Source: Bacillota bacterium (GTDB lineage: Bacteria; Bacillota_I; Bacilli_A; Erysipelotrichales; Erysipelotrichaceae). Taken from it: a stretch of DNA of 45,839 nt. Below the pieces are notes generated by a model. That model was not told the DNA's origin and ran no database searches. It saw only the letters and a list, made by a program, of their open reading frames with translations. The stretch spans positions 1 to 45,839 of the forward strand of contig JAHFCO010000017.1 of assembly GCA_023249475.1 (NCBI GenBank), read 5' to 3'. Each line of letters starts with the position of its first letter. Position 1 is the stretch's first letter. The position numbers were made by a program, and so were the translations under genes. Below, one piece after another: positions 10,687 to 19,385 of the stretch.

Positions 10687-12639
10687 CTATTGGACGTTTT
10701 GTAGATAGAATTCATACAGTAAAGCAATCACCGCATCGAAGGTCGCGCATTTGGCCAATCGTTGGATATTGGCCTCATCCATGGCGAAACGAGAGATGAT
10801 GGCGTAGAAATAATTGAGATAATGGATGTCCTCTTTCGCGATCGCGAAGAGTAGGACGACGGAAACCCTCTGATTGCCCCATTCGATCGGCTCGTGAAGC
10901 GTCGCGATCGCGACGCTGGTCTTCAAGGCATGCACGATGGTCGCATGGGGTAGCGCGACCCCGGTCTGGATCGAGGTCGGAATCAGCGACTCGCGCTCCA
11001 AAACGGAAGCCTCGAACGCATCGTCGACGAAGGACCCTTCCTTCAGCCGGCTACAGAGATATCGGATGCACTCTTCGCTCTTCTTGACGCGAATCGACGG
11101 ATAAAACTGGTCATGGGCAAAGAACACACGGGTCAAGGTGTTGAAGTTGCGTTTCTTCATTTTCTCGATTTCCTTCGTCAGGACGGCTTGGATGGAGAAA
11201 CGATCCCCCATCGACACTTCCGGACGGATGATGAGGTCGGGGGTTTTCCCTCCGACTTTGATCATCGATGTCGATACGATGACATCCGGCATCGTCTGGG
11301 TCTGGACGAACTGTTCCAACTCCGCCGCGGAAACGATTTCGATGCGTTCGATCATGCTTTCTTGACGCAGGACCTCGTTGTTTTTGATGATGTATTTGAC
11401 GACCGATCGTCCCTCAAGAGCGACGACGAGCACTTTCAAGCGATCACGCACGATGTTCCCGCGTTGCAGGCTTTCATAGGTGTCGGCCAGATGGCAAACG
11501 ATGAAACTGATTTCATCCTGATGGAAACGGATCCCCATGATTTCGGAGAGCCGGTTCCCGATATAGAGTGCAACGTCGAACAGGAACGGATATTCCCGTT
11601 TCATCTGTTCGATGATCGGGTTCTTGATGAAAATCCCCTTCTCCATCCTCAGGATGGCGATCTTGATGTGGATCGTGAGATCGATCGCCAATTCCGTTTC
11701 ATGGGTGAAATCGAGGGCGTAATGGGTCTTCACTTCAGTCAAGACGTGGCGGATCGCCATGAAAACAGGCTCGCTCAGCACATCCCCGCTTCGACCAAAC
11801 CCTTCGACCTCCTCCATCGTCTTCACCATGGACAAACTCTCGTTAAGCAGCTCGACATCTTGGGGGGGAATCGAAAGGTCGAAGATTTCCAAGAGACGGC
11901 GCGTGATCCACACGACCAATCCGCTCTCGGGGTTCTGACGGGACTCCGTATTCTCTTCATTGCTTCCGCTTGGGTTTGAGGTCACGGCTTGTTCGGAAAT
12001 CATCAGCACCGTGATCAGCAAGGATCGAAACGAAAGATAGCGCGAGAAGTATTTCTCTTCCACCAACAGTTCAAGAAGCATGTCCGAAATGGCCGGTACG
12101 TCGATCTTGGGGAAAATGCGGGCGAATTGTTCGGGCGTCGAATAACCCAAATTGTTTTTTATCCAATGGATCAAGAATTTGACTTGGTCAAGACGTCTCC
12201 CTTGAAACATGAAGGTATCGTTGTGCCGCTCCAGGGAAAGCGCGAAGCCATGGGATTGGATTTCTTTTCGAATCAAATGCAGGTCCGTCAACAAGGTCGA
12301 TTCGGAAACATACAACGCGTTGGCGAGGTCGAAGTAGTCGATGCCGGTCGGGGACAGGATCATCTCTTTGATGACCACCGCCAACCGTTCCCGTGCGTCC
12401 AGGACGTTCTCGACGTTTAGCGATTTGAAATCGACCTCGCGGTTGTAGCGATATCCGTACTGCTTCGAGGTCTGGATGACGGGTTCGTTGAAAACCGCCT
12501 TGATGCTCTCGATATCCATCCGGATCGTACGATCGCTTACGGCTAAAAGTTCAGACAATTCGCTCCCTTTGACCCAGTCTTCCTTGATGTACAAGGTAAC
12601 CAGGATTTTCTCCTGTCGCTTGGAAAGCATCGGTTTCAT
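10687..12639 (-). CDS. PRD-containing transcriptional regulator with active IIA domain (MtlR/LicR-like)
   Basis: A 650-residue regulator. N-terminal HTH domains (SELLAVSDRTIRMDIE and VSESTLLTDLHLI) are followed by PRDs, a IIB-like domain and a C-terminal fructose/mannitol-type IIA domain. PRD histidines appear kept (LTIHIKIAILRM and IVCHLADTYE), and the IIA site GVALPHAT is intact (about H565). The IIB-like segment VVALEGRSV lacks the cysteine. The start at 12639 is chosen over an ATG at 12654 because GGAGG lies eight bases before it. It probably activates the cluster when its IIA and PRD sites report low PTS flux. The intact sites contrast with the regulator at 1211-3190. Confidence 0.88.
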   Translation of the reverse strand: MKPMLSKRQEKILVTLYIKEDWVKGSELSELLAVSDRTIRMDIESIKAVFNEPVIQTSKQYGYRYNREVDFKSLNVENVLDARERLAVVIKEMILSPTGIDYFDLANALYVSESTLLTDLHLIRKEIQSHGFALSLERHNDTFMFQGRRLDQVKFLIHWIKNNLGYSTPEQFARIFPKIDVPAISDMLLELLVEEKYFSRYLSFRSLLITVLMISEQAVTSNPSGSNEENTESRQNPESGLVVWITRRLLEIFDLSIPPQDVELLNESLSMVKTMEEVEGFGRSGDVLSEPVFMAIRHVLTEVKTHYALDFTHETELAIDLTIHIKIAILRMEKGIFIKNPIIEQMKREYPFLFDVALYIGNRLSEIMGIRFHQDEISFIVCHLADTYESLQRGNIVRDRLKVLVVALEGRSVVKYIIKNNEVLRQESMIERIEIVSAAELEQFVQTQTMPDVIVSTSMIKVGGKTPDLIIRPEVSMGDRFSIQAVLTKEIEKMKKRNFNTLTRVFFAHDQFYPSIRVKKSEECIRYLCSRLKEGSFVDDAFEASVLERESLIPTSIQTGVALPHATIVHALKTSVAIATLHEPIEWGNQRVSVVLLFAIAKEDIHYLNYFYAIISRFAMDEANIQRLAKCATFDAVIALLYEFYLQNVQ

Positions 12640-12661
12640 CCGCTCTACCTCCATGTTCTAT

Positions 12662-18129: not shown

Positions 18130-18158
18130 ATCATAGTGAGTATCGACATTCGCCACAA
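18130..18158 (-). promoter_or_regulatory. Promoter of the PTS IIC-IIB operon
   Basis: On the minus strand TTGTGG (-35, 18153-18158) and TATGAT (-10, 18130-18135) are separated by exactly 17 bases. The start of transcription would be about 40 bases before the ribosome site of the IIC gene. Confidence 0.65.
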
Positions 18159-18166
18159 ATAAGCGT

Positions 18167-18186
18167 TTTCCTAATCGGTTAGGAAA
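18167..18186. promoter_or_regulatory. Perfect palindromic operator upstream of the IIC promoter
   Basis: TTTCCTAA-TCGG-TTAGGAAA is a perfect 8+8 inverted repeat, placed eight bases upstream of the -35 element. The position suits an activator such as the PRD regulator at 10687-12639. The adjoining AATAAGCGTTTTCC resembles a cre site with three mismatches. Confidence 0.6.
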
Positions 18187-18228
18187 TGCGATTCTCTTCT
18201 TTAAGCTTCTTACCCTCCAATGATACCA

Positions 18229-18464
18229 TAAATAAAAGGACCGCCAAGATTCGGCGGTCCGATGCAATTCGATTCACTCTATTCCAAACTATCCGACTCA
18301 AATCAGTAACTCGATACGAACAGATATCCATTCCATTCGAATCCAATCCCGACGAAGATCTTCATTCGGTATTCTCTTCTATTCTCATCTCTTCCAATCC
18401 ATTCTATTCCATTCTCTTCGATGCGAAGCTAAGAAATCTTAACCGATCGAAGCACTACAACTAC
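18229..18464 (-). ncRNA. Predicted GGA-rich small RNA or attenuated leader
   Basis: A transcript of about 235 nt is predicted from a strong promoter (18471-18499) to a strong terminator. The terminator stem pairs GGACCGCC (18238-18245) with GGCGGTCC (18253-18260), followed by TTTTATTTA on the minus strand. The RNA is purine-rich and carries about nine GGA motifs, several as ATGGAAT or TTGGAAT, in single-stranded-looking low-complexity sequence. A 5' hairpin pairs CTTCGAT with ATCGAAG. No protein-length frame exists on this strand; one 20-codon frame (18303-18365) is present. It could be a free regulatory RNA that collects a GGA-binding protein such as CsrA, or an attenuated leader of the IIC gene. 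The family is not recognised. Confidence 0.6.
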
Positions 18465-18470
18465 ACCCAT

Positions 18471-18499
18471 AATATAGCACAAACGGGGGGTAGAGTCAA
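18471..18499 (-). promoter_or_regulatory. Strong promoter of the predicted small RNA
   Basis: TTGACT (18494-18499) and TATATT (18471-18476) are separated by 17 bases on the minus strand, close to the sigma-70 consensus. It lies between the stop of the membrane protein gene (18552) and the GGA-rich segment. A separate hairpin, GGTCGAT (18512-18518) with ATCGACC (18541-18547), lies just upstream and may end the previous transcript. Confidence 0.7.
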
Positions 18500-18551
18500 T
18501 CGAGGCACGTCGGTCGATCGGTGATGCCGATGAAATGTGAATCGACCCTGG

Positions 18552-19385
18552 CTAGTAAATGACGGACTCATCCGACGTTTCAAGGGATGCTTGGTTATTG
18601 ATCGAACGGTAGAGGATGAAGGTGAACGCCATCGTCAACACCGTCGAACCGGTGGCGACCACGCTGCTCAGCAAGGCGCCGACAAGCGGGATTCCGCTGA
18701 ATCCGCCGGCGATGCTCGAAAGGATGTTGGTGAGGATCTGGATCAACAACGTGACGCCGACCACCGTCCAGAAACAACGTTTGACGGAAGCGAAGGATTT
18801 CTTGATCGCATTCATCACGGTCAGATCGTCCAACACCATCGCGGCGAACCAGAAAGTGAAGAAAACCGCGCCGACCGCAAGGACAAGGATCAAAAGGAGA
18901 AGCAATCCGATCAGAGCGAAAAGATTGAGGGTGTCGCCGCTAAAGGTGACCATGAAGGTGACGATGACATAGATGACCGAAACCAATCCGACCGCCAAAC
19001 CAAGCAAAATCCCGCCGAAGATCAACTTAAGATACTTTACGATGTTTTCACTTAGCGCCGTGGTGAAGTCGTTGAACGTGATGTTTTCCCCCATCAAGCC
19101 CAACTTGATCAATCCGGCCGTCATCGGGAACGCCGCAAGATTCAAGATCGTCGCGAACATCCCTCCCGAATTCGTACCGGTTTTGGCGCTTGTGATCAAT
19201 GCCTGTAAGGCTTCCGTATTGGCAACATAGTACTCCCGGTTCAGACTGAACTCCTGCCAGACTTCGCGCAGGTTCCCCGCGGTCGGTCGAATCAATAACG
19301 CCGGGATGAACGTCGCTACGAAGACCGGTACCAAAACGATCCAATGCTTAACGAGAAAATCGAATGCCGCCTTAAGATATTTCAT
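18552..19385 (-). CDS. Multi-spanning membrane protein of unknown function
   Basis: A 277-residue protein with about six hydrophobic segments. A first helix WIVLVPVFVATFIPALLI near residue 15 is followed by a long extracytoplasmic loop to about residue 70, then helices through SGGMFATILNLAAFPMTAGLI and a very hydrophobic ALIGLLLLLILVLAVGAVFF stretch. AIKKSFASVKRCFWTVVGVT resembles bacterial membrane proteins of the glycerophosphodiesterase-membrane-domain type, but the match is weak. It has no catalytic motif. It lies 76 bases after deoC on the same strand, with an inverted repeat CTTACC-N7-GGTAAG (19396-19414) in the gap. The start has AAGGAAA upstream. Confidence 0.7.
   Translation of the reverse strand: MKYLKAAFDFLVKHWIVLVPVFVATFIPALLIRPTAGNLREVWQEFSLNREYYVANTEALQALITSAKTGTNSGGMFATILNLAAFPMTAGLIKLGLMGENITFNDFTTALSENIVKYLKLIFGGILLGLAVGLVSVIYVIVTFMVTFSGDTLNLFALIGLLLLLILVLAVGAVFFTFWFAAMVLDDLTVMNAIKKSFASVKRCFWTVVGVTLLIQILTNILSSIAGGFSGIPLVGALLSSVVATGSTVLTMAFTFILYRSINNQASLETSDESVIY

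Follow-up and report, generated by a model that had tools for sequence, protein, structure and literature searches.

The sites of the TRAP (MtrB) protein in the trp leader of Bacillus consist of 11 (G/U)AG triplets with spacers of 2–3 nt (PMC3913778). The small RNA described here resembles these sites in having one triplet per 5 nt and about the same number of units. Read in the TRAP register, its array becomes (G/U)(A/G)G-AA, with G or U at the first place in 19 of the 20 units; (G/U)AG itself occupied approximately 6 of the 9–10 register positions in each of two sister species, the rest being UGG, GGG or AAG, and the spacing was TRAP-like. Unlike in the TRAP sites, the second triplet base was G in 6 of the 20 units, where TRAP wants A. 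The array also lies in a stand-alone RNA instead of an mRNA leader, in a genus whose two genomes gave no match to mtrB/TRAP (PF02081) even at an E-value of 10, while the B. subtilis control was positive.

The CsrB/CsrC and RsmX/Y/Z RNAs are likewise stand-alone small RNAs with repeated purine motifs, and titration may be another shared trait; the present RNA differs from them in belonging to a lineage without detected CsrA and in having GGA motifs that are near chance frequency and interchangeable with AGA. Further, the GGA motifs of CsrB/RsmY-type RNAs are presented in hairpin loops, whereas the motifs here form a linear array with a 5-nt phase. In size the RNA is comparable to 6S RNA, but it contained no match to RF00013, and a different contig of this genome carries a 6S-like match that falls short of the Rfam cut-off (35.6 of 46.4 bits). 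With the orphan intergenic small RNAs of Gram-positive bacteria it shares its own promoter and intrinsic terminator, a length of 200–250 nt and a narrow phylogenetic range; the pentamer-phased purine array sets it apart from them. The Rfam search revealed no family at the gathering score and a single snoRNA match at chance level (E 0.76), in agreement with the original prediction that this RNA stands outside the known families, 6S included.

The gene comes from an uncultured bacterium and is located beside a sugar-uptake (PTS) operon, on the minus strand of the window (the whole 45,839-nt stretch of DNA that was analysed). Its features are as follows.

18471–18499, minus strand: sigma-70 type promoter TTGACT-17-TATATT with extended -10 (TGC), 29 of 29 positions identical in the sister species (G001)
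18233–18467, minus strand: small RNA as modelled, nt 1–235, start expected at approximately 18464 and end in the U tract
18416–18452, minus strand: 5' inverted repeat CTTCGAT...ATCGAAG, nt 16–52, a potential hairpin according to folding models
18370–18419, minus strand: pentamer array of 10 consecutive GANNN units, consensus G-A-A-(U/G)-(A/G), nt 49–98
18349–18369, minus strand: predicted small hairpin CCGA(A/G)TGAAGATCTTCGTCGG, with palindromic GAAGATCTTC, pair probability approximately 0.75–0.8 in both species
18324–18348, minus strand: second pentamer stretch, GATTG GATTC GAATG GAATG GATAT, fully conserved
18303–18365, minus strand: possible 20-codon ORF MKIFVGIGFEWNGYLFVSSY, start codon ATG here and GTG in the sister species, weak ribosome site
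18294–18364, minus strand: invariant block, nt 104–174, 71 nt with zero differences between the two species
18229–18260, minus strand: intrinsic terminator, 10-bp stem and U tract, 1 of 28 stem positions changed in the sister species

Both the promoter and the U-tailed hairpin could be found as predicted, the latter being the hairpin GGACCGCCGA-ATC-TTGGCGGTCC of 10 bp followed by TTTTATTT (minus strand, 18260–18229). Promoter-like sites by themselves were not rare (4 found against 4.1 expected); the promoter of the small RNA is credible because it is fully conserved in the sister species. Between the two signals lie approximately 233 nt of purine-rich, gene-free sequence. The earlier description of a minus-strand segment without a protein gene was thus correct, as no ORF of at least 100 amino acids was found inside it on the minus strand; the ORF finder listed a plus-strand ORF spanning it (18186–18524). 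The small RNA is present as a single copy in its own genome and, having its own conserved promoter and terminator, is probably the product of an autonomous small RNA gene. Judging from these signals and their conservation, RNA polymerase would start near 18464 and stop at the hairpin proper (18260–18238, minus strand), which would produce an RNA of approximately 233 nt. The promoter spacer CTACCCCCCGTTTGTGC (18493–18477, minus strand) was 100% conserved between the two species; promoter spacers usually drift, and a putative regulator site may lie inside this one.

The genus consists of two genomes, and in a DNA search of 41 genomes (its own and 40 relatives) the sister species was the only relative in which the RNA was matched. 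There the orthologue occupied the same place with promoter, RNA and terminator all kept. The two RNAs were identical at 218 of 235 positions, that is, with 17 differences. Alignment by part revealed 54/55 identical positions in the 5' part, 34/42 in the array, 106/113 in the 3' part and 27/28 in the terminator stem, where one C-G pair had become U-G with pairing kept. The spacer between terminator and PTS operator had 28/46 identical and 18/46 changed positions (39%), and four-fold degenerate sites of the five neighbouring genes that could be scored without alignment gaps differed by 14–37% (IIC 23.5%, IIB 14%, the other three 22–37%). A sixth gene, 18552–19385, gave a four-fold figure of 7.3%, which is unreliable because the ten gapped columns in its alignment break the reading frame. 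This gene, on the minus strand just upstream of the RNA, codes for a membrane protein whose match to DUF7847 stayed below threshold (24.2 of 28.7 bits). Compared with these higher rates in neighbouring four-fold sites and spacer, the 17/235 changes in the RNA and 0/29 in its promoter point to a selected, self-contained RNA gene. Judged from the comparison of the two species, the RNA is under purifying selection, and the invariant block may represent a specific functional part. Whether or not its array binds a protein, the locus clearly exemplifies a small RNA gene that is under selection and restricted to one genus.

Beyond the genus, a covariance model built from the two sequences found the RNA in 0 of 194 other family genomes and 0 of 293 order genomes (the two samples overlap), one match in G142 aside; with only two sequences behind it the model has little power, and diverged relatives could have escaped it. 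The match in G142 (E 1e-5), the only one below 0.001 outside the genus, overlaps a folA-like gene at its end together with the hairpin downstream of it, and was considered compositional. Among viral contigs the 5' hairpin had no exact match.

The most distinctive part of the RNA is its purine-rich section, with ten RGA-type triplets exactly five bases apart, followed later by a second run of five. The array reads GAAGA GAATG GAATA GAATG GATTG GAAGA GATGA GAATA GAAGA GAATA in the window and GAAGA GAATA GAAAA GAATA GACGG GAATG GAAGA GAATA GAAGA GAATA in the sister species. Such a ten-unit GANNN run was reached by 0 of 2000 shuffles, and the array was the sole run of at least six GA at 5-nt spacing on both strands of the 1.35 Mb scanned (65% of the genome). 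When the sequence outside the array was tested separately (nt 99–207), GA at 5-nt spacing was also in excess (P=0.0015 in the window, 0.0005 in the sister species); the RNA has a 5-nt period. All eight array differences between the species fell at pentamer positions 3–5 and none at GA (P=0.011), and the array length was unchanged, with no indels. Position 4 was G or U in 19 of the 20 units of both species, and position 5 was A or G in all of them. The substitution level within the array (8/42, 19%) was close to the neutral rate, so that the phase of the changes is the one test that speaks for selection on the array.

Folding predictions were less distinctive. The 5' inverted-repeat hairpin was stable in the model of the sister species, whereas the window model preferred an alternative fold. 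Predicted folding energies were weakly or not better than those of shuffled sequences (z -1.63 and -0.45). Four differences between the species fell in predicted pairs and all four kept pairing; no pair was changed on both sides, and covariation cannot be tested with only two orthologues. Given the weak energies and the lack of double-sided changes, the structure is not proven. The array was predicted to be mostly unpaired in the sister species (0.77–0.83) and partly so in the window (0.53–0.57), an openness no greater than that obtained with shuffled flanks. In the two-sequence consensus fold the array carried no hairpins, and its earlier description as linear holds insofar as it is not made up of hairpins capped by GGA.

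Our tentative explanation, held at well below even confidence, is that the stand-alone RNA serves as a multivalent binding platform for a putative RNA-binding partner. An oligomeric or multi-domain RNA-binding protein, other than CsrA, Hfq or a recognisable TRAP, would sit on the phased triplets, and the RNA would either titrate the bound protein or be the site on which the protein is made to work. Both the partner and the titration are inferred. Among candidate partners, neither mtrB/TRAP nor hfq was matched in the two genomes of the genus, and csrA was not matched in 41 genomes. A narrower form, in which the RNA titrates or scaffolds a putative ring-shaped or multi-domain protein that reads (A/G)GA every five bases, in a TRAP-like mode although the lineage yielded no TRAP, CsrA or Hfq, is improbable. 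If the array does bind a protein, this would mean that an Erysipelotrichaceae-type lineage without detected CsrA, TRAP or Hfq has a regulator acting post-transcriptionally, and that triplets at 5-nt spacing are put to a new use beyond the trp system of Bacillus.

Two other readings are close rivals of the binding platform. Most free-standing small RNAs that have a promoter and terminator of their own act by base pairing, and it is possible, if on the unlikely side, that this RNA pairs with target mRNAs through seeds in its conserved 5' region and in nt 104–174 (the invariant block), the array being a flexible, fast-evolving linker. Conservation is indeed highest outside the array, and the genus, which has no detectable hfq, would resemble other Gram-positive lineages that lack hfq and still use small RNAs. 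Against this, a target scan covering the translation-initiation regions of 1184 genes (the scan took in approximately 65% of the genome) revealed no complementarity beyond that of shuffled RNA, whose best helices were just as good. The mRNA of the adjacent PTS IIC gene was considered as an antisense target, as GAAUAGAGU can form a 9-bp match with ACUCUAUUC beside its Shine-Dalgarno sequence; this match was not exceptional among the 1184 regions, and the pairing is not conserved, since its rank falls from 60th with the window RNA to 731st with the RNA of the sister species.

It is somewhat more doubtful that the array represents a pentanucleotide microsatellite in decay, (GAATR)n, which originated within an untranslated RNA and serves no function, so that only the RNA's other parts matter. 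Its near-neutral substitution level would suit such a tract, and the second GAATG-like run could stem from the same expansion. Moreover, other genomes of the family carry pentamer tracts without the other parts of the RNA: patterns of this type occurred in nine of them and, where inspected, were coding or simple-sequence tracts, some of them perfect (GAGCA)n and some decayed and apparently intergenic (G209, G249 and G066). As coding sequences, perfect microsatellites or simple-sequence tracts, they were rejected as relatives of the RNA. A decaying tract is harder to reconcile with the avoidance of GA by eight of eight changes, with an array of the same length in both species, and with an invariant second stretch and a period present in both parts of the RNA. 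Degenerate 5-nt purine arrays of the GATAG and GAAAA types were seen in other family genomes at L116 (1486–1535, minus), L117 (1501–1545, plus) and L118 (1466–1535, minus; all positions along the named strand), apparently intergenic and without the rest of the RNA.

A function as a short mRNA or dual-function RNA for the 20-residue peptide MKIFVGIGFEWNGYLFVSSY, with the purine tract as a ribosome landing region, appears decidedly unlikely. The start codon was kept through the change from ATG to GTG, the residues were otherwise identical, and the synonymous codon choice ranked at the 31st percentile when compared with real genes and at the 98th when compared with out-of-frame sequence. However, zero synonymous changes were found in the 20 codons and the conservation extended beyond both ends of the ORF, which together suggest constraint on the nucleotides. 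The Shine-Dalgarno match, assessed by eye, comprised 3 bases only, and no convincing relative of the peptide was found outside the genus.

The neighbouring genes encode a PTS EIIC and a IIB of the lactose/cellobiose type; a regulator of the PRD/EIIA type is encoded further along (10687–12654). A second promoter and an operator for this operon had been predicted after the terminator, and both were located approximately 50–80 nt beyond it.

18167–18186, minus strand: operator-like palindrome TTTCCTAACCGATTAGGAAA with perfect arms, upstream of the -35 of the PTS operon, a single occurrence in 1.35 Mb
18130–18158, minus strand: PTS operon promoter TTGTGG-17-TATGAT, identified by eye, -10 kept in all three sequences

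The PRD/EIIA regulator (10687–12654) probably acts at this palindrome. The palindrome was kept in the sister species and, with one base changed, in L006, a relative with an 86% identical EIIC. In L006 a manA-like gene and another terminator stood where the RNA would be, while the palindrome and TATGAT were kept; the operon therefore does without the RNA. The original prediction had left open a free RNA or an attenuated leader. The data agree with a free small RNA that has a conserved promoter and terminator of its own, whereas a transcription attenuator or riboswitch-like leader with conditional read-through at 18238 is very unlikely, because the operon's own promoter and operator are kept in L006 without the RNA and conservation is lacking in the 47 nt that separate the terminator from the operator. 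The RNA does lie on the same strand with its terminator just upstream of the operon, and in window models of truncated transcripts its 5' end can pair with the first arm of the terminator; however, this pairing was not seen in the sister species, where another partner was predicted.

The weakest alternative, a decoy for CsrA/RsmA-type proteins as originally proposed, can practically be set aside, since these bacteria yielded no CsrA: a search for csrA (PF02599), positive in the control genomes of E. coli, B. subtilis and T. maritima, drew a blank in all 41 genomes searched across the genus, family and order, its own and the sister genome among them. The proposal was based on about nine GGA motifs, and ten are in fact present. 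However, dinucleotide-preserving shuffles gave 7.4 expected (P=0.10), which indicates no enrichment beyond dinucleotide content, and the sister species had 8 against 7.45 expected (P=0.51). The motifs were also not conserved, several GGA having changed to AGA between the species. The locus illustrates how a GGA count can mislead. Many of these motifs had been described as ATGGAAT or TTGGAAT, which is true of only three of the ten; what is enriched is the phased GAAT, with 12 occurrences in each species against approximately 3.6 expected.
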